Shown piece by piece: positions 13,167-23,911 of a stretch of DNA of 41,229 nucleotides. This DNA is from a virus, in the IMG/VR virus record IMGVR_UViG_3300020122_000290, positions 1 through 41,229 of that record, one strand, 5' to 3'. The translations under genes and the position numbers were made by a program. Below the pieces are notes generated by a model. It was not told where the DNA came from, did not search any database, and was given only the letters and a program-made list of their open reading frames with translations. Position 1 is the stretch's first letter. Each line of letters opens with the position of its first letter.

Positions 13167-13439
13167 CTACGGTGGGCCCATCTGACCAGGCGGCGGTGCG
13201 CCACCGAGCGCGACGCCACCCGCATCGATGCCGAGCGCCTGGGCGGGCGTGGGCACCGGCGGCGGCGCGCGTTTCTTCGCGGCAATCATCGCCTGCACGA
13301 GCTTCATGAGACCGGGGTTGCTCGCCATGCTGGCAAGCCCGCTCCCACCCATGGCCGCCGGCTGCGCGGTGCCGGGACCGACGCTCGTGGCCGGGATAAC
13401 ACCGCCCGCAGTGGGGGCGGGCAGGTAACTCACGGGCAT
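13167..13439 (-). CDS. Small Pro/Ala-rich protein, 90 aa
   Basis: ATG 13439 overlaps the end of the PP-loop gene by 10 bases. The sequence is low in complexity, rich in Pro, Ala and Gly, with one basic helix in the middle (LMKLVQAMIAAKKRAPPP). No domain recognised. Composition like the Pro-rich proteins on both sides suggests a minor virion component. Confidence 0.6.
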   Translation of the reverse strand: MPVSYLPAPTAGGVIPATSVGPGTAQPAAMGGSGLASMASNPGLMKLVQAMIAAKKRAPPPVPTPAQALGIDAGGVALGGAPPPGQMGPP

Positions 13440-14149
13440 GTCAGCTCCTTCAGACGCTCGTGCAAATGCGGCGCCTCCGCATCCGTCGCACGTTCGAGAT
13501 CGCGGAGCACGTCGCGCACGTGCTCGAACTTCGCCGGGTGGTGTTGACGCAGGTACGCAAGTTTGCCCTGGTTCTCATAGAGGTAGGCCGTGCAGTTCCA
13601 ACAGTCGAGGCCGGTGTTCATCGTCGCGTAGTGGTCCGGGAGCTCGATGCCGTTCGCGTCCAGGTACTCGCGCACCTGCGCGTCAGTCCACTCCCAGATC
13701 GGCAGCTCGTAGCGGATGCCCAGGAAGGTCGACCCGGGCTCGATCGGTGAGTGGAAGCCGTCGCTCTTCTTGCTGCCGCGGATGATGCACTCCGCGCCGA
13801 GCTCGACCATCGCCGCGTGCAGCGGATAGCTGATCGTCGTGAGGCAACAGTCCCACTTCGACTGGAAGCGGTGCTGCCCGGGCGCGAGCGGATGCAGCAG
13901 CGCGGCCTCCTTCGTGCGCGCGCTCGGCACCAGGTCCGCCGGGTAGCCGCGCTCGGCGATCGTCTGCCGGCCGCGCACCACCAGGAAGTGCGGCACGATC
14001 GCCTCGATGTCGCGCATGTACTCCACCGTCTCCGGGAGCGCCGCATCGGTGCAGAGCCACACGACGGTGAGCTTGTCCCAGTGCGCGCGCAGCAGGTGCA
14101 GCACGGCGATCGAGTCCTTGCCGCCGGAGAACTGCAGGAAGGTCTTCAA
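13430..14149 (-). CDS. PAPS-reductase-like PP-loop protein, 239 aa
   Basis: Residues 8-13 are SGGKDS, the pyrophosphate-binding PP-loop of the PAPS reductase / ATP pyrophosphatase superfamily, followed by VVWLCTDAALPETVEY as in the family. Cys101-Cys102 and a later C-W-N-C (183-186), with RGSKKSD at 124-130, could coordinate an Fe-S cluster as in reductases and DndC-type sulfur-transfer proteins. Phages often carry such genes within structural modules. True substrate (PAPS, DNA sulfuration, or another adenylation) cannot be decided. Start ATG 14149 overlaps the upstream stop by 4 bases. Confidence 0.85.
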   Translation of the reverse strand: MKTFLQFSGGKDSIAVLHLLRAHWDKLTVVWLCTDAALPETVEYMRDIEAIVPHFLVVRGRQTIAERGYPADLVPSARTKEAALLHPLAPGQHRFQSKWDCCLTTISYPLHAAMVELGAECIIRGSKKSDGFHSPIEPGSTFLGIRYELPIWEWTDAQVREYLDANGIELPDHYATMNTGLDCWNCTAYLYENQGKLAYLRQHHPAKFEHVRDVLRDLERATDAEAPHLHERLKELTCP

Positions 14150-16122: not shown

Positions 16123-16564
16123 CTGTGCTTCTCCGCGGTCGATTGATGGTGTGCCAGCGGCACTCCCGTTTGAGCATCCCGAACACGATTGCGTCCTGCC
16201 CGTCGGCATACCACTCGCGCAGCGTGCCCTCGTACTTGAAGCCGATCGCCCGGCAGAACTTCTGGCTCACCTTGTTGCGCCGGGTGATGAGCGCCGAGCA
16301 GCGCTGGCAGCCGAGCTGCCCGAACACGTACTTGAAGACCGTCACGATGAACCGCCGGGTGATCGAGCTCTTGTCGCGCAGCCGGATCGAGAGGATCACG
16401 TCCGGGCCGGTGTAGGTGTTGAACACCACCCCCGCGTGCAGGTAGCCGGCCGCATCCACCAGGCCGATCGCCGTGTACGCGTTGTCGCCCAGGTCCATCA
16501 TCGGGATCCCGGCGGCGACCCACTTGGCCACGAGCTCGCTCTGGTCGCCGATCACGTGCTTCAT
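15803..16564 (-). CDS. GNAT-type acetyltransferase-like protein with out-of-frame extension, 253 aa
   Basis: Residues 1-139 read as a GNAT domain: VFNTYTGPDVILSIRL, then GCQRCSALITRRNKVSQKF (acetyl-CoA-binding type helix) and the C-terminal IGFKYEGTLREWYADGQDAI...GMLKRECRW, which is how many phage GNAT proteins end. The frame then stays open for 114 more residues of Arg/Gly/Pro/Ala that overlap the low-complexity gene at 15508-16122. A lost stop or frameshift near 16147 is possible. ATG 16564 is coupled to the upstream stop. GNATs in phage head-tail clusters may acetylate a virion or host protein; substrate unknown. Confidence 0.7.
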   Translation of the reverse strand: MKHVIGDQSELVAKWVAAGIPMMDLGDNAYTAIGLVDAAGYLHAGVVFNTYTGPDVILSIRLRDKSSITRRFIVTVFKYVFGQLGCQRCSALITRRNKVSQKFCRAIGFKYEGTLREWYADGQDAIVFGMLKRECRWHTINRPRRSTDGQFNGRATAATDGRGPAGPRDPDAGSGHGDASDGRERGPGNSPEHGGAAQGPAVPRRPEPERERADGAGAERGDAGGNGIRPGAGRVPGRAAASLARAAARGRTQ

Positions 16565-18225
16565 GTCGCGTTCCCGTAGAACACGCCGCCCCGCTCATGC
16601 AGATACGTCGCGCTCATCCACTGGCAGGTGAGGTTCGAGGCGCTGATGCGCATCTGCACCGCACCATAGCTGCCTTCCCCCGCCAGGCCCAGCCAGGGCT
16701 TGAGGATGATGGTCGCATCGCCCCAGAAGGTCGGCGTCGACCACAGGCTCGTGTTCCAGGGCGAGAGGTTGCCGGCCGACAGCGGGATCGTGGAGGTCGG
16801 CGCGGTCGGGTCAAAGTCGACGTTGAGCTTCAGCGAGAGCTGCATCGAGCCGTTCACGCGGAAGATCGGCTGAAACATCGTCCAGCGCTTGTTCTGCCCG
16901 GGCGCGCCGTGCTGGCTGAAGGCCGGCTGCACCCAGAAGGTGATCGCACTGCCGTTGTCATCCAGGCCGGTGTCGACCTGGTTCACCGCGCCCGCCTGGC
17001 CGGCGTAGAGGTTGTCGCCGAGCATCTCCAGGCAGAAGGTGTTCCAGCTGGAGCTCTTCAGGCCGTACGTCGACCAGGCGCCCGAGAGTGTGTTCTGCAC
17101 CCACAAAAAGCTGGTGCCGAGCGTATTGCTCGTCGGGTTCTGCAGCAGGATCTTCGTGCCGAACGGGTACAGCTGCAGCTGCCACCCCTGCGCGTTGCCG
17201 TAGATCTGGATCTGCTCCGAGACCCCCAGGCGGATCTTGTCCGTCACCGCCTGCCGGGTGGTCGAGCGGTCCGTGAGCATCGCCTGGCTGATGAGCACGA
17301 CGCCATCGACCGTGAGCAGCAGCGCATCGGCGCCGACCTTCGTCCAGCCCTTGCGACCGGGCGCCAAGAGGCGGCCCATGACGAAGTGCGCGGAGATCGA
17401 CCAGGTGGTCACGCTCGCCGGGTCGTAGCCCTGGTAGACCACGACCTCACCCATCGAGGAGCAGAACGCCATGAAGTCCTGCAGGCCCGCGCTGTTGTCG
17501 ACCGACACCGCGACCATCGCGATGATGTAGCCGCCGAGCTTGAAGTCCGCCGCCAGGTTCAGCTGCGTGAGCGCGCCGCTTGCCTGCAGCTGCGGCAGGT
17601 ACCACACCTGGAAGGTGCCGTCCTGGAGGAACCACAGGCGCTGCTTGTAGACCGCGGCCTGGCTCAGGGTCTTCAGGCCCGCATCGGTGCCGCCGGCCGG
17701 TCCGCCGGTGAGCTGATAGGTGCCGCCGACACTGGCGACGGCGTTCCACGTGGAACCGTCGAACAGCGCCGGCAGGTCCTGGCCGCTCGCATTGAGCGCC
17801 CAGAGGAACTCCTGGCTGCCGCTGCCGAATTGGTTGTAGTCGAAGTACGCCGAGTGCAGCTGCTGCAGCGTGTTGCCCGGCCCACCCATCACGGCCGCGC
17901 CCGGTGAGCCGCCCCCGGCGTTGTCGACGCGATAGATCCCGTACGTGCCGCCATTGTTGATGGCGGCGAAGAGGAACTGGCCGACGGTCTTGATCCCTGA
18001 GTAGCCCATCACCGTCTCAGCGTTGCCGCTGAAGGTGGCGAGCATGTTCTCGCCCTTGCGGAACTCCACCCAGGTGGGCTGGCAGAACCAGTTGTCCAGG
18101 ATGATCGCGTCCTTCTCGTCCATGTTGGCCAGCGCGTCGCGCGCGTTCAGGCCACCGATGGGCGAGGGGAGCTGGTAGGGCGTCGCCTTGTTCTGGCTGC
18201 GCTGCCCGGGCGCGTCGACTTTCAC
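16561..18225 (-). CDS. Tail hub/stabilization protein (P22 gp10-like), 554 aa
   Basis: GTG 18225 overlaps the gp4-like stop (GTGA). The N-terminus (SPIGGLNARDALANMDEKDA, LDNWFCQPTWVEFRKG) is the characteristic opening of podophage tail nozzle/stabilization proteins, followed by a beta-propeller-like series of strands (GTYGIYRVDNAG, LFDGSTWNAVASVG, KQRLWFLQDG). It would bind below the gp4-like adaptor to close the portal and carry the fibres. P22 gp10 has 472 residues, this one is longer. Order gp4-like then gp10-like matches P22. Confidence 0.8.
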   Translation of the reverse strand: MKVDAPGQRSQNKATPYQLPSPIGGLNARDALANMDEKDAIILDNWFCQPTWVEFRKGENMLATFSGNAETVMGYSGIKTVGQFLFAAINNGGTYGIYRVDNAGGGSPGAAVMGGPGNTLQQLHSAYFDYNQFGSGSQEFLWALNASGQDLPALFDGSTWNAVASVGGTYQLTGGPAGGTDAGLKTLSQAAVYKQRLWFLQDGTFQVWYLPQLQASGALTQLNLAADFKLGGYIIAMVAVSVDNSAGLQDFMAFCSSMGEVVVYQGYDPASVTTWSISAHFVMGRLLAPGRKGWTKVGADALLLTVDGVVLISQAMLTDRSTTRQAVTDKIRLGVSEQIQIYGNAQGWQLQLYPFGTKILLQNPTSNTLGTSFLWVQNTLSGAWSTYGLKSSSWNTFCLEMLGDNLYAGQAGAVNQVDTGLDDNGSAITFWVQPAFSQHGAPGQNKRWTMFQPIFRVNGSMQLSLKLNVDFDPTAPTSTIPLSAGNLSPWNTSLWSTPTFWGDATIILKPWLGLAGEGSYGAVQMRISASNLTCQWMSATYLHERGGVFYGNAT

Positions 18226-19217
18226 GTACCGAAGCCGGTATCCGGTACCTGCTGCGAGCTAAGGAGGCGCAGCTGCCCGGCGCGCGCATTGAGCGGGAGG
18301 TTGCGCGGCGCGGTCTCCCGGCCCGTGCGGCGGTTCATCGCGCGCTGGTACTCCTCGAACTCCTCCGCGTAGCTATTGCCAATGGCGCGCAACATGCGCC
18401 ACTTGAGCGACAACGTGATGAGATCCTCGGGGAATGCGACGCACACGTCCGTGTCCGCCTGGAAGAGCGCCTGGCTCGCCACGGTCGGCGTCGCCACCGG
18501 CGCCACCCAGTTCACCCCGGCGTACTCCATCACGATGAGGTCGGTCACCGGGGCGATGTTGCCGGTCTGGATGAAGGGGGAGGGGTTCAGGTAGATCTGC
18601 CCCGCCATCAGGCGGTAGCGGATGCGCGGGCCCACCGGGCTGATGCCCGATTTCAGCACCTGCCACTCCTGCGCGTTCACCGGTCCCAGCAGCTGCCAGC
18701 GGAAGTTGCGGTCCCAGTCGGTCGAGGGGATGAAGTAGTTGAGGTCGCTCGGCAGCGGGTAGGCCTCCTGGCCGAACGCGAGTGCGGTGTCCACGGCCGT
18801 GGTGAAGACCGAGCCGTTGAGCGTGTTGGCGTTCTGGTTCATGAGCGCGGTGCCGGCGCCCACATTGACCGAGACGATCGCCGTGTCCGGCAGCACGTAC
18901 TGCGAGCTCACCTGCCAGCCCGGCTGCACCGCTGACAGGCCCGCCCCGGCGCCGGTGAAGACGATCCCGGTGATCGTGGGCGAGCCGTACGTGAAGGTCC
19001 CCGTGAAGGGCCCTTGCCCCGCCAGGTTGAACAGGAATTGCTTGCGGATCACCGGCCAGTAGTCGGCCGCATCGGTCGCATCGCGCAGCTCGATGCCGGC
19101 GCGGTTGGCGAGCGCGAGGCCCTTGACCACGTTCTCGTCCCCGTTGCCGACCACCTGGGCGACGACACCCAGGCCGATCTCGGAGAACGCCTGGCTGACC
19201 AATGTGAGCAGTGACAT
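18222..19217 (-). CDS. Tail accessory factor / head-tail adaptor (P22 gp4-like), 331 aa
   Basis: Start ATG 19217 with SD GGAGGT. The N-terminus (MSLLTLVSQAFSEIGLG, VKGLALANRAGIELRD, WPVIRKQFLFNL) matches the gp4 tail accessory family that docks on the portal. A Gly/Thr/Val-rich beta insertion (about 80-150) makes it about twice as long as P22 gp4 (166 residues). The C-terminal helical part (YAEEFEEYQRAMNRRTGRE) is also family-like. Directly followed by the gp10-like gene. Confidence 0.8.
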   Translation of the reverse strand: MSLLTLVSQAFSEIGLGVVAQVVGNGDENVVKGLALANRAGIELRDATDAADYWPVIRKQFLFNLAGQGPFTGTFTYGSPTITGIVFTGAGAGLSAVQPGWQVSSQYVLPDTAIVSVNVGAGTALMNQNANTLNGSVFTTAVDTALAFGQEAYPLPSDLNYFIPSTDWDRNFRWQLLGPVNAQEWQVLKSGISPVGPRIRYRLMAGQIYLNPSPFIQTGNIAPVTDLIVMEYAGVNWVAPVATPTVASQALFQADTDVCVAFPEDLITLSLKWRMLRAIGNSYAEEFEEYQRAMNRRTGRETAPRNLPLNARAGQLRLLSSQQVPDTGFGT

Positions 19218-19230
19218 GGAACCTCCGTCG

Positions 19231-20103
19231 TTACGCGGCCGCCTCGTCCTCGCGTGGCTCCGCGGCCACCTGGGCACGCGCGGCGGCGCGGGCCTTGAGC
19301 TGCTTGCCCTTCTGCACGGACAGCTTCTTCAGCTGCGGCGCCACCTGGGCGGCGCGGCTGCGCGTCTCTTGGGTGAGTGCGTCATCGTGATCGACGCCGC
19401 CGCGCTCGCGCTCCACGGTCAGCTTGTCGACCATGAGCTGCAGCGCCTCGACCTTCTTGGTGAGCTCGTCCGCGCGCTCCTCGGCCCGGCGGGCGTTCTC
19501 CTGCTCGCGCGACACGATGCGGTTGCGGTCACGCTCGGAGAGCGCCGCCTTCGCCAGGTCGCGGTACTTGATGCCGCCCATGATGTTCTGCGCGTTCACA
19601 TCCGACAGCCCGGCGAGCATCTCCACCGTGTGGATGTTCTGCGCCTTGAGGCTGAGGGCGTAGGTCTTCGTGACCACGCCCCACTCCTCGATCGGGAAGC
19701 CGTCCATCGAGCTCGCGTTCTTGCGCATGAAGCGCGCCCAGGCCTTCGGGTACTTGGTGGGCTCCGGGACGTCGCCGTTCTCGCACTGCTCGCGCACGCT
19801 CCACGTGGTGTGGATCTCGCCCGAGTCCGGGTCGACCGCCATCTCGTAGTCGAGGCCGGTGGTGGCGTGCACCCAGGTCGTCTTGGTGTTGCCGGGGGCG
19901 ATCAGCGTGGTGCGGATCTCCGTGCGGTAGATCGGGTAGCCGGCGTCCTTGGACATCGCCTCCATGAAGAGCGCGGCCTCCTCGAAGGTCACCATGAAGC
20001 CGGCGCCCTCATCATCGGGCCCGTAGCTGACGGTGCCGACGCCGGAGGCGGGGATCTTGCCCTCGCGGATGTGGTGCGGGGTGGAGAAGCTGGGAATATC
20101 CAT
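19231..20103 (-). CDS. Conserved phage protein with C-terminal coiled coil, 290 aa
   Basis: Start ATG 20103; longer reading upstream is a shadow of the fusion enzyme. The first 110 residues contain TTWVHATTGLDYEM and WSVREQCENG. Residues about 110-190 (FMRKNASSMDGFPIEEW, LSLKAQNIHTVEMLAGLSDV) are a motif I have seen in capsid-neighbour proteins of podoviruses, with no known role. Residues about 195-290 form a highly charged coiled coil ending in basic Ala-rich sequence. Probably structural or assembly-related. Confidence 0.75.
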   Translation of the reverse strand: MDIPSFSTPHHIREGKIPASGVGTVSYGPDDEGAGFMVTFEEAALFMEAMSKDAGYPIYRTEIRTTLIAPGNTKTTWVHATTGLDYEMAVDPDSGEIHTTWSVREQCENGDVPEPTKYPKAWARFMRKNASSMDGFPIEEWGVVTKTYALSLKAQNIHTVEMLAGLSDVNAQNIMGGIKYRDLAKAALSERDRNRIVSREQENARRAEERADELTKKVEALQLMVDKLTVERERGGVDHDDALTQETRSRAAQVAPQLKKLSVQKGKQLKARAAARAQVAAEPREDEAAA

Positions 20104-20105
20104 GG

Positions 20106-22232
20106 TCAGTCCCTCGTGAAGATGACGTCGCGGTGCGCGGTCCCGCGGATGGTGTAACCCCTGGCCTTCAGCCAGGCGATCGTGAAGTCGTCGGTGTAAC
20201 CGTAGCGCACGCCCAGGCCCTTGAGCTCCAGCACGATGACCGGGTGATGGCGCTCGATCGTGGCCGCGGCGCCCTCTAGCGCCAGCTGCTCGTAGCCCTC
20301 GATGTCGAGCACGAGCAGATCCAGGTGCGGCAGGTTCATCGCATCGATCGTGCGGATCGACACGCCGCCTTCTTCCCGCACCACGTACGTGGCGCCGGGG
20401 TTGCCGACCGCCTGCTGCAGCTTGACGTGCTCGACCGCGGCGCCCAAGCCCTCCTGGAGCGCGACGATGTTCTCGCGCCCGGGCCGCAGCGCGAGGTTGC
20501 GCGTGAGGCACTCCCAGTTCTCCGGGTCCGGCTCGAACGTGTACACACGCTCGAAGTGCGCGGCGAGCTCCAGCGGCCACACGCCGACGTTGCCGCCCGC
20601 CTGCACACAGACGCGCCGATGCTTCGGGAGCGTCGCGTAGAGCCGGCAGTCCGTGATCGTGCCCAGCACCGCCTGGCGCGTCTCCAGGTCGCGCGCCGGC
20701 CACCAGGTGCCGTCGATCTGGATGAAGCCCTCGTCCGGCTCGCGCATCGAGGCGGCGATCCAGGGGACGAGGCCCTCGCCGAACACGTAGAGCTCGGCGC
20801 CCGAGTTGAGCATGAGCGCCGCGAGCTCGCGGAACTCACTCGCCTGCTGCACCATCCAGGCGGCGCACTTGAAGTGCCGGCCGCGGTGGATCGCATCGAG
20901 CACGCGCTGCCCGTCGTTCTCCGGCTGCGGGTAGGCGTGGTGCTGCCCGTCCTGGTAGGACGAGTCGAAGCCGAAGAGCGCGAACTTGCGGAAACCCATC
21001 CCCCAGGCGAGCGCGATCGCGCGCATCCCGACCGTCGAGCCGCCGCCGACGAGCGGCACGCCCTCGGGCAGCACCCCGGGGGCGCCTTCCGTGAGCGGGT
21101 GCCACACGGTGAGCTCCGCGTCCGGGTCCGCCTGGGCGAGCTGCAGCAGCACCGGGTCGACCATCGAGGCGAAGAGCTTCTTGCCGCCGGGCTGGTAGAA
21201 GCGCACGCACTCGGGCTTCGCATCACAGATCACCTGCGCGTCTTCCCGCATGCCGTGGGCACGCAGGAAGCCCGCCGTGGCGTTGGTGGCGAGCACGATG
21301 CCCCCGTCGCGCTGCATGGCGAAGACCTGCGGGAGCGCGAGCTTGAGCGACGGGCCGCCGCCCAGGATGACGGCGAGCTGATCGTGCGGCGCGCTCGACT
21401 CCAGGAAGTCGAGCTCCGGGTTGGCCGCGCAGGAGGTGATGCGCGCGAGGATCGTCTCCTGGGGCATGTTCGGGACCATGACGAGCTCGGCCGCGATCCC
21501 GCCGCCCACCTTCCACACTGCCGGCACCCAACCATCGAGCACCTCGTGCGGGCGCGGGTGCCCGTGGAAGTACACGACACTCGTGCCCTTGGGCGGATCG
21601 GCGACGCACTCGACCTTGTACGAGCGCAGCACGCCCGGCAGCAGGTCCTGCAGGATCTCCGGCGGCCAACACTCCCCACCGATGCGGCGCGCGTTGTAGC
21701 CGCTGCGCGCAAAGAACTTCTCCAGGTACTCCTGGTCGCCACCAGGCCAGTGCGCGGCCGGATCCCACCGGTGCGCCTGGTCGGGCTGGAAGATCGGGCC
21801 GATCACGCGCAGCTGGAACTCCTCCCAGATCGCGGTCGTGAGCTCGGTGTCCGCGGCGAAGGACATGACCGAGCTCTGGAACCCATCGTGCCGGTACGCA
21901 TCGCGCAGGATTGCGAACGCGGGCCGCAGCGCGGCGAGCTTGTCGAGCGTGCCGCACACGAGCGTGTCCAGGTCGAAGTAGAGCACCTGGTCACCAACAT
22001 TGAACGTGCCGGGTGCGAACAGCGCGAGCTTGTTCCACCAGCCAGTGAGCCCGGCGGGGAGGAGCTGGGTCTCCACCCCCGCCAAGCCACGTAAGGCCTC
22101 GGGGTCGTCGGTGAGGCACACAAAGCGCCCCACCGTCCCATCGGCCAAATTGCGTCGCACCATGTCGTGCAGGCGCTCGACGTACTCGACGCCGAACGCC
22201 TTGCCCCAGCGAACACAGGCGACCTGGAGCAT
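20106..22232 (-). CDS. Three-domain fusion: glycosyltransferase - DUF115 - FkbM methyltransferase, 708 aa
   Basis: Residues 1-~250 look like a glycosyltransferase: VACVRWGKAFGVEYVERL, WWNKLALF at 65-72 and a D-x-D motif Asp87-Leu-Asp89 in LYFDLDTL. Residues ~280-500 look like DUF115 (MptE/Maf-type): AVILGGGPSLK at 287-297, LATNATAGFLRAHGM, ALFGFDSSYQDG at 418-429. Residues ~535-708 are an FkbM-type SAM methyltransferase: VQAGGNVGVWPLELA at 543-557, FEPDPENWECL at 566-576, LVLDIEGYEQLALEGA at 640-655. Together this is a one-polypeptide glycan builder/modifier. It lies in the head module between capsid and tail genes, so it may modify virion glycoprotein or host surface glycan. Confidence 0.85.
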   Translation of the reverse strand: MLQVACVRWGKAFGVEYVERLHDMVRRNLADGTVGRFVCLTDDPEALRGLAGVETQLLPAGLTGWWNKLALFAPGTFNVGDQVLYFDLDTLVCGTLDKLAALRPAFAILRDAYRHDGFQSSVMSFAADTELTTAIWEEFQLRVIGPIFQPDQAHRWDPAAHWPGGDQEYLEKFFARSGYNARRIGGECWPPEILQDLLPGVLRSYKVECVADPPKGTSVVYFHGHPRPHEVLDGWVPAVWKVGGGIAAELVMVPNMPQETILARITSCAANPELDFLESSAPHDQLAVILGGGPSLKLALPQVFAMQRDGGIVLATNATAGFLRAHGMREDAQVICDAKPECVRFYQPGGKKLFASMVDPVLLQLAQADPDAELTVWHPLTEGAPGVLPEGVPLVGGGSTVGMRAIALAWGMGFRKFALFGFDSSYQDGQHHAYPQPENDGQRVLDAIHRGRHFKCAAWMVQQASEFRELAALMLNSGAELYVFGEGLVPWIAASMREPDEGFIQIDGTWWPARDLETRQAVLGTITDCRLYATLPKHRRVCVQAGGNVGVWPLELAAHFERVYTFEPDPENWECLTRNLALRPGRENIVALQEGLGAAVEHVKLQQAVGNPGATYVVREEGGVSIRTIDAMNLPHLDLLVLDIEGYEQLALEGAAATIERHHPVIVLELKGLGVRYGYTDDFTIAWLKARGYTIRGTAHRDVIFTRD

Positions 22233-22236
22233 CGAC

Positions 22237-22914
22237 TTACAGGCCTTCCAGGACCGGGCGACCGTTCAGGTAGATCAACACGCACGAGCTCGTGGTGGTG
22301 ACCGTCGCGACGTTCGCCTGGCGGCTGCCCAGGACCTGGCCCTTGGTGGACGGCGTGAAGTAGATGCGCCCGGCGGTGCCGGAGACATACACGCCCACCG
22401 TACCGGGGGCCACCTGGACGGCGGTCTTCAACGCCTGGCACACGCCGCCACACTGGAACCAGGCGTACTGGACCTGCGTGGTGTTGCTGGTGATGCCAGC
22501 ACCGGAGTTGTAGACCGTGGAGGCCACGCAGACCGCGAGCGGAACGCCCGTGCCCTGCGAGGTGCCCTTGGCCGGGACCGCCACGACCTGGTACTGATTG
22601 GCGCCCTGCAGCGTGTAGCTGACAACGGTGCCCAGTGGGATCGCGGTGGAGGTCGGGACGGCCAGGTAGATGAACTCGCCGGCACCGAGCGTGGGCTCAG
22701 TGGCAGCGCGCACCTGCCCGAGGAACGGCTCGAACACCGCCTTCGGGAGGACCGAGGTCGCCACGTTCTGCAGGCCGGTTGCGGCCGGACCGGGGCCAGG
22801 TGCATCGGTGCTGACGTAACCGATGTCCAGGAGGCCGATCGTCGGATCGGCGAAGCCCCAGTTGTACGTGGGTGCTGCGGGAACCTGTGCAGCCAGGAAG
22901 GAGATCTTGCCCAT
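22237..22914 (-). CDS. Capsid decoration-like beta protein, 225 aa
   Basis: Lies immediately downstream of the major capsid gene, with SD GGAG ahead of ATG 22914. The sequence is almost all beta: FIYLAVPTSTAIPLGTVVSY, YQVVAVPAKGTSQG, VQYAWFQCGG, GRIYFTPSTKG. This pattern is common in small head proteins encoded next to capsid genes. Cysteines at CVAS, CGGVC and SSC are unusual in a virion protein but no zinc motif is evident. Likely cements or decorates the capsid surface. Confidence 0.7.
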   Translation of the reverse strand: MGKISFLAAQVPAAPTYNWGFADPTIGLLDIGYVSTDAPGPGPAATGLQNVATSVLPKAVFEPFLGQVRAATEPTLGAGEFIYLAVPTSTAIPLGTVVSYTLQGANQYQVVAVPAKGTSQGTGVPLAVCVASTVYNSGAGITSNTTQVQYAWFQCGGVCQALKTAVQVAPGTVGVYVSGTAGRIYFTPSTKGQVLGSRQANVATVTTTSSCVLIYLNGRPVLEGL

Positions 22915-22927
22915 GGTGGTGGTCTCC

Positions 22928-23911
22928 TTACGCGAGCAGGGCGCCCTGGAGGAAGCGGTTCGAGGTGGTCAGGTTGCCGGCAAAGCCTACGAGCTTCACC
23001 ATCGCGTCCTGGTTCACCGCGAAGCGCTCATCGCCCAGGGGAGCCATGTTGCGGTCCGAGTGGGGGCGGAAGAACAGGTACTTGGTGTTGAGCATGTACA
23101 TGCTGTTCACCGGCGCACCGCCGCCGAAGCCGCCATCGAGCACCACGTCGCAGTTCATGTACTTGAGCGTCTGGAAGCCCAGCTGCGCAAGCTCATTCCC
23201 CTCGACGCGCTGGATCGCCTGGAGTGACTCCAGGTAATAGCGGTAGAAGTTGTTGTCCGCAACGATCAGATCCGGCGCGTCAGCACCGCGGACCAGCTGC
23301 AGATAGACCCGGTTCATGTAGGTCTGGATGTTCGCGGTCGAGGCCGCGGTCCCACCGTTCGTCACGGCGCTGAAGGCGACGTTGCGCCAGAAGGACAAGA
23401 CCGACGGGTCGATGCCGCCCACGATGCCGGAGGTGGGCGTGGAGCTGACCAGGAGCTGAATGCCCCCGATCTGCCGTCCGCCGTCCGCCGTGCCGTTCGA
23501 GTAGGTATCGAGGGCGATGTTGTTGGTGAGGGTCTGCTCGGCGTTCTCGATACGCGAGTCGAGCAGGTCGATGATCGCCTCCTCGCCGCTGTTCTGCAGC
23601 ATCTCCAGTCCCGAGATCGAGACGGCGACCGCTGCCTGGGCGTAGTTGTACTCCGCGCCCGTGAACACGTCGGAAGGGCTGATGTTGAGCGTCTCGTACC
23701 CGGAGTAACGCTTGTAGGTGCCGTTCTCCTGGTAGTTGAGCTCCTGCACGATGGTGCGACCGCCCGAGACAGGCTTGACACGGTTCTTGGAACGCAGCCG
23801 GTAGAGCAAGGCGTTGTTCTTCGTCACGTTGTCAGCGAGCTTCCCGGTGCGATTGCGCAGCGTGGTCGTCACGATCTCAGGGATCGTGGACGACGGGTTG
23901 GGCAATGCCAT
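22928..23911 (-). CDS. Major capsid protein, 327 aa
   Basis: ATG 23911 with SD GGAGA. The sequence follows a podovirus HK97-fold coat family: TTTLRNRTGKLADNVTKNNA at 16-35, GGRTIVQELNYQENGTY, YSGYETLNISPSDVFTGAEY, VSISGLEMLQNSGEEAIIDL, and a C-terminal segment MYMLNTKYLFFRPHSDRNM with GDERFAVNQDA. It follows the scaffold gene and precedes the decoration-like gene, the usual head order. No protease gene is adjacent, in line with scaffold-directed P22-type assembly. Confidence 0.9.
   Translation of the reverse strand: MALPNPSSTIPEIVTTTLRNRTGKLADNVTKNNALLYRLRSKNRVKPVSGGRTIVQELNYQENGTYKRYSGYETLNISPSDVFTGAEYNYAQAAVAVSISGLEMLQNSGEEAIIDLLDSRIENAEQTLTNNIALDTYSNGTADGGRQIGGIQLLVSSTPTSGIVGGIDPSVLSFWRNVAFSAVTNGGTAASTANIQTYMNRVYLQLVRGADAPDLIVADNNFYRYYLESLQAIQRVEGNELAQLGFQTLKYMNCDVVLDGGFGGGAPVNSMYMLNTKYLFFRPHSDRNMAPLGDERFAVNQDAMVKLVGFAGNLTTSNRFLQGALLA

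Follow-up and report, generated by a model that had tools for sequence, protein, structure and literature searches.

What an enzyme that appears to transfer sugars as well as methyl groups might be doing among the head genes of a phage is the question raised by a single frame on an IMG/VR virus contig of 41,229 bases, analysed here at its full length and referred to as the window. The frame lies on the minus strand, begins with ATG at 22232, terminates with TGA at 20106 and comprises 708 codons for a protein of 708 aa. A plus-strand gene over the same interval was ruled out, as the plus strand carries stops there. The first-pass annotation had read three domain signatures in this one frame (a D-x-D glycosyltransferase, a DUF115 domain and an FkbM methyltransferase) and had suggested profile searches of the separate parts, a structure prediction of the full chain and a search for the same domain order elsewhere. 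Profile searches as well as an AlphaFold model bore out the three signatures, and the motifs were located exactly where they had been placed (D87/D89, GGGPSLK 291-297, FGFDSSY 420-426, GGNVG 546-550, FEPDP 566-570 and LDIEGYE 642-648). Coordinates of the domains and of the neighbouring genes are given in Table 1.

Table 1. Features of the head region of the window and the evidence for each.
Feature	Position	Strand	Evidence
Major capsid protein (Mx8-like)	22928..23911	-	phrog_9953, E 5e-124
Capsid cement/decoration protein, 225 aa, Mx8 p49 homologue	22237..22914	-	phrog_29386, fold match
Proposed acceptor loop, cement residues 204-210 (TVTTTSS)	22285..22305	-	Ser/Thr columns, predicted strands
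Whole enzyme, GT8 glycosyltransferase + Maf-type DUF115 + FkbM methyltransferase by homology	20106..22232	-	Profiles, model, independent contigs
N-terminal domain, residues 1-245, GT8-like GT-A glycosyltransferase	21498..22232	-	Profiles, Foldseek
Middle domain, residues 258-496, DUF115/MptE-like, Maf-type	20745..21461	-	Profiles, Foldseek
C-terminal domain, residues 505-708, FkbM SAM-dependent methyltransferase	20109..20720	-	PF05050, TIGR01444, 2py6
p50-like gene, 290 aa, directly downstream of the enzyme	19231..20103	-	phrog_20268; Mx8 p50 homologue by position and profile
SU10-type head-tail adaptor, next gene after p50	18222..19277	-	PF24175, phrog_6013

The full-chain AlphaFold model had a mean pLDDT of 91.6 and a pTM of 0.61; the domains are confidently modelled, and their mutual placement in the model is uncertain. 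Foldseek matched all three domains in the PDB, the best matches being Maf (5mu5, 8e-9), glycogenin (5.7e-8), GlyE (9e-8) and FkbM (2py6, 1.8e-7). Profile searches likewise matched each part of the chain to the expected family. Residues 5-241 fell into phrog_1962, a family of phage glycosyltransferases (E 9e-27), and a profile of the N-terminal domain retrieved from the PDB the GT8 enzymes Skp1 galactosyltransferase (6mw5, 1.6e-8) and glycogenin (1.8e-7). The D-x-D (D87xD89), GGDQ (164-167) and F-H-G-x-P-K/R-P (FHGHPRPH, 222-229) stretches aligned with GT8 enzymes including glycogenin, and Foldseek comparison with glycogenin, GlyE and Skp1 galactosyltransferase (5.7e-8 to 6.5e-7) pointed to a GT-A fold. 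In 22 aligned rows D87 was invariant and D89 nearly so, the second Asp of D-x-D being missing from L008 and L012. The glycosyltransferase claim was thereby narrowed to a GT8-type enzyme, as judged by homology; kinship with glycogenin and Skp1 galactosyltransferase leaves donor and acceptor unfixed. The phage domain has in common with glycogenin, Skp1 galactosyltransferase and GlyE the GT-A fold, D-x-D, GGDQ and a C-terminal F/H-x-G-x-x-K/R-P, but unlike them it falls in phrog_1962 and is fused to DUF115 and a methyltransferase.

The middle domain matched PF01973 (MptE-like/DUF115) over residues 267-428 with E 2e-12, over the curated cut-off. If the Pfam name were taken literally, this domain would be a pterin pyrophosphokinase, and a weak profile as well as fold match to the MptE-type protein 8sd5 was indeed obtained. 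Maf (5mu5) matched far better, both by profile (6.8e-15, against 8e-5 for 8sd5 and 0.05 for the Cst-II family) and by fold (8e-9, the top Foldseek match, against 3.8e-4). On the strength of the profile scores we take the middle domain to be of Maf type and no pterin kinase, which upholds and sharpens the link between DUF115 and Maf drawn in the first-pass annotation. Fusion to GT8 and methyltransferase domains would, moreover, make no sense for pterin synthesis. We therefore rejected identity with MptE 6-hydroxymethylpterin diphosphokinase, a function to which we give practically no credence. Maf enzymes O-glycosylate surface Ser/Thr residues, and their central pfam01973 domain, which resembles Cst-II, is preceded by a Rossmann-like domain and followed by a helical one (PMC11339370). 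For M. magneticum AMB-1, see also PMC9298399. The phage protein and M. magneticum Maf (PDB 5MU5) have in common the PF01973 domain, the GxGPS motif and a GxT...LGF..L.LFGxD stretch, whereas in place of the flanking domains of Maf the phage enzyme has GT8 at the N-terminus and FkbM at the C-terminus.

The third claim, that of an FkbM methyltransferase, also held. Residues 561-694 matched PF05050 FkbM (3e-13; 50.6 bits against a curated cut-off of 22.7) and TIGR01444 fkbM_fam (3e-18; 66.5 against 37.7), and the profile of the domain retrieved 2py6 from the PDB (3.6e-10). SAM-site residues G42, V45, G46, E63, P64, D139, E141 and G142 (domain numbering) were invariant in 16 rows. Homology thus establishes three enzyme classes in one chain, namely GT8, Maf-type DUF115 and FkbM. 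All three domains are under purifying selection, with dN/dS of about 0.15 (GT8), 0.19 (DUF115) and 0.13 (FkbM) in comparison with the 95%-identical L002.

Two successive searches for relatives, the first with the complete protein as query and the second with an alignment of residues 1-500, collected some 60 loci of viruses plus a single contig (39 kb) from a Rhodopila MAG. Of the carriers, L089 hints at Acetobacteraceae with kinship to Rhodopila. The same three-domain order recurred in other contigs (L002, L003, L029, L039, L040, L050, L089, L100, L101 and L117). Since independent contigs show an identical order, and split versions exist as well, fusion during assembly was excluded. Most relatives are 640-680 aa long and end in PF13578 Methyltransf_24 in place of FkbM, the closest solved relative of this type being 6g7d, which we take to be the mannoside 1-O-methyltransferase MeT1. 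On a tree of 58 rows built from the shared first 500 residues, FkbM (10 rows) and Methyltransf_24 (39 rows) were interleaved; about 6 swaps are needed by the data, of which 5 are forced by well-supported branches (the third-domain type of L004 was read from 29 residues at a contig end). Wherever it was recognised, the third domain was a methyltransferase, though from unrelated subfamilies. That unrelated methyltransferase domains have repeatedly replaced one another at a single position suggests selection on the methyl cap itself.

The same activities were also found apportioned differently among genes, a Rosetta-stone pattern when set beside the three-domain fusions. GT-DUF115 proteins had FkbM as an adjoining gene in L063-L067, L132 and L206, a DUF115-FkbM fusion had GT in the adjoining gene in L070, and all three were separate genes in L217. 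In L068 and L069 a Methyltransf_13/23/14 gene, an architecture presumably that of sugar C-methyltransferases, lay between DUF115 and GT and replaced the usual methyltransferase. In the majority of the 80 nearest phage FkbM loci a GT8-like gene accompanied the FkbM gene, and 45 of the 80 had a portal gene nearby; the pair is a second form of the same chemistry, made of two genes and placed elsewhere in the morphogenesis module. Outside the Mx8 lineage the GT8-like gene commonly overlaps or abuts the FkbM gene (L180-L257, e.g. L193:3415-4603 and L235:3415-4603). A copy of the enzyme gene in L021 (10013-11361) is broken into several short frames, as is the capsid frame of that contig, reflecting either a decayed element or sequencing errors.

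The head module of the window follows the Mx8 order portal-p46-p47-capsid-p49-p50-p51-p52, and its capsid protein shows 61% identity with that of Bradyrhizobium phage ppBjS10J-1 and 49% with those of Mx8/Mx9 and of Stenotrophomonas phage BUCT555. The cement gene stops 4 nt ahead of the enzyme ATG, and the p50 ATG sits 2 nt past the enzyme stop. The enzyme had been described as lying between a decoration protein and gp4-like genes; this agrees with the cement gene upstream and with the SU10-type adaptor downstream, beyond p50. Among 54 distinct loci found via the enzyme itself, 51 could be tested for their neighbours; 50 of these had the capsid gene just upstream, and all 51 had p50/adaptor downstream. 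DUF115 or GT was absent from the homologous place in the five named relatives examined (Mx8, ppBjS10J-1, BUCT555, 45A6 and ctMlz233), and no DUF115 match was found among the named phages of the phage record collection. When 80 contigs selected by their capsid gene, which as nearest relatives form no random sample, were surveyed together with the five named phages, GT or DUF115 was found in 28 of the 66 with a visible slot; the slot also held DUF115 alone or two DUF115 genes. The slot is an accessory insertion of varied content between the cement gene and p50 of Mx8-like podoviruses, with DUF115 as the common member. Paired DUF115 genes were seen in L164, L167, L168, L171-L173, L175 and L177, the first of each pair measuring about 540 aa and ending in a region with weak glycosyltransferase likeness (phrog_7162, tested on L164). 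DUF115 also occurred fused to N-terminal parts of about 200-335 aa that had no Pfam or PHROG match (L151:8828-9425 and L134:8548-9553), and some proteins of the slot, L140:7702-8478 and L137:7806-8975 among them, had no family match.

Genes for maf are often found near flagellin genes. The phage enzyme gene likewise adjoins the gene of a surface protein, though that protein is a capsid cement protein and not a flagellin. The AF2 model of the cement protein (pLDDT 81.7) matched capsid cement proteins of Pam3, Sf11, T1, TW1 and XM1 in Foldseek. Over one shared set of 82 loci, the presence of DUF115 required 4 changes on the cement tree, as compared to 12 (capsid), 14 (p50) and 15 (adaptor) on the other three trees. 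With all Ser/Thr masked the cement tree still required 4, thereby refuting the possibility that carriers group together merely by Ser/Thr convergence. Thus, the enzyme is co-inherited with the cement protein, unlike with capsid, p50 or adaptor. Closeness alone cannot explain this linkage, because p50 adjoins the enzyme equally (2 nt against 4 nt).

The composition of the cement protein also differed with carriage. Its Ser+Thr fraction was 0.210 in carriers and 0.148 in non-carriers, and no such difference was found in portal, p410, p50 or amid554. On the capsid tree 10 of the 11 pairs showed the cement excess (Wilcoxon 0.003), and regression gave t 7.6. Given the joint inheritance of cement and enzyme, the excess was downgraded as independent evidence; the cement tree offers just 3 independent carrier/non-carrier pairs, 2 of them in the expected direction. 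Ser/Thr frequencies in carriers and non-carriers, respectively, were 0.98 and 0.08 at T204, 0.83 and 0.07 at T207, 0.71 and 0.25 at T208, and 0.94 and 0.04 at S210. The strongest of these columns (T204, T207 and S210) fall in a predicted loop between strands 193-199 and 211-222, and we infer that the loop T204-S210 is most likely the glycosite of the cement protein.

The enzyme might instead glycosylate and methylate another virion protein, such as capsid, p50, adaptor or tail, the link with cement reflecting recombination breakpoints. Capsid and tail-tube subunits of mycobacteriophages are reported to bear glycans ascribed to phage glycosyltransferases (Freeman et al. 2023, as cited in PMC12619734 and PMC11256854), and in our data the capsid showed a small Ser/Thr excess in carriers (0.156 against 0.142; phylogenetic regression +0.013). 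In addition, no recognisable cement homologue was found in the carrier group L063, L064, L066, L067, L132, L152 and L158, so the acceptor may differ there. Such a target appears unlikely in view of the mismatch between carriage and the capsid, p50 and adaptor trees, which extends to p50 in spite of its equal closeness.

Modification of a host cell-surface glycan, by which re-adsorption or superinfection would be blocked, had been offered as an alternative target. Surface sugars are among the possible substrates of FkbM-type enzymes. Glycosyltransferases of temperate phages do change host surface glycans (PMC12619734). The present enzyme, though, has no hydrophobic or membrane segment (maximum 19-residue hydropathy 1.35), its gene is packed into a structural operon by the short gaps on either side and always adjoins head genes, and it follows the tree of the cement protein. 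These features make a host-surface target the less likely one, and we consider it improbable, more so than another virion protein. Since phage glycosyltransferases often act on DNA (PMC12619734), synthesis or glycosylation of a hypermodified DNA base was also considered. This is very improbable, given that the DUF115 domain is closest to a protein glycosyltransferase, Maf, and that the gene is situated in the head operon; nor were the required base-modification genes seen among the scanned genes of the window, many of which had no match.

We consider it reasonably probable that the enzyme acts late and in the cytoplasm, O-glycosylating the cement protein and then methylating the sugar. Cytoplasmic action is suggested by the lack of a hydrophobic segment; the donor, the acceptor, the order of transfers, methylation on the sugar and the benefit are likewise what we infer. 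The cement protein would be translated just before the enzyme from the same operon, and the Maf-type DUF115 domain would attach a sugar to its surface Ser/Thr, most likely in the loop T204-S210. The window has no nucleotide-sugar genes of the epimerase (PF01370), NeuB (PF03102) or NTP_transferase (PF00483) type, and the nucleotide-sugar donors are for this reason presumed to be made by the host. The GT8 domain would add a second sugar, or the roles of GT8 and DUF115 in priming and extension may be reversed. The C-terminal methyltransferase would then O-methylate the sugar and so cap or disguise it. As a conjecture, the resulting coat of methylated glycans on the capsid might protect the particle or alter its surface and recognition. 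Three results support the proposal in the first-pass annotation that the protein makes a glycan and methylates it, perhaps on virion proteins: the methyltransferase swaps, the conserved position among head genes and the co-inheritance with cement.

Glycosylated mycobacteriophage virions and glycosylation of flagellin by Maf are already known. Our literature search found nothing on DUF115/MptE-like proteins in phage capsid glycosylation. The first-pass annotation knew of no described phage enzyme of this architecture; we too found no paper describing GT-DUF115-methyltransferase, although it is not unique to this phage. As far as searched, no description exists of the combination, of this lineage, of cement as acceptor or of the interchange of methyltransferases. 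It is an evenly balanced proposition whether this is a single-protein machine that transfers, extends and methylates a glycan on the cement protein, the first Maf-type O-glycosylation in phages, with a methyltransferase slot refilled by unrelated enzymes. Such refilling would be expected if phages were selected to change the chemistry of their capsid glycan. As in known virion-glycosylation systems, a phage glycosyltransferase gene is here linked to the gene of a virion surface protein. Unlike the glycosylated mycobacteriophages, the present case concerns another phage group, a proposed cement acceptor, a Maf-type domain and a built-in methyltransferase. Reports of glycosylated virions cover few phages; this family of genes would add a large lineage of environmental podoviruses to them and would name a likely acceptor, the loop T204-S210 of the cement protein. 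If true, Maf-type glycosylation would occur outside flagella. Being a single polypeptide, the enzyme is testable in E. coli with the product of the neighbouring gene as substrate, and it is a possible tool to attach methylated sugars to particles.

Two further phage genes of phrog_1962, P1 PmgQ and P7 HdmD, are homologous to the GT domain at about 29% identity; unlike the present enzyme they match that domain only. PmgQ (AF234172 81542-82120) is annotated as 'putative morphogenetic function', and the homology suggests possible virion glycosylation in P1. Deposited proteins that have the GT-DUF115 part go under the name MptE-like. One of them, A0A6J5PVH5 (UniProt, uncultured Caudovirales, 700 aa), aligned over 499 columns at 34% identity, as would fit that part; it is annotated just as 'MptE-like', and no functional description was found. 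Elsewhere in the structural region of the window, positions 13433-14149 (minus strand) encode a phosphoadenosine phosphosulfate reductase-like protein (phrog_424). The gene at 16561-18225 (minus strand) carries the PHROG label amidase (lysis), which may be wrong, as its homologue in the corresponding position of ctMlz233 bears the annotation 'phage stabilization protein'. Acetyltransferase genes lie at one place downstream of the amid554 homologue in several Mx8-like phages (L094:12784-13068, L096:13917-14363 and L098:12838-13251), those of L094 and L096 being of GNAT type, and this place is possibly a second site for modifying enzymes.
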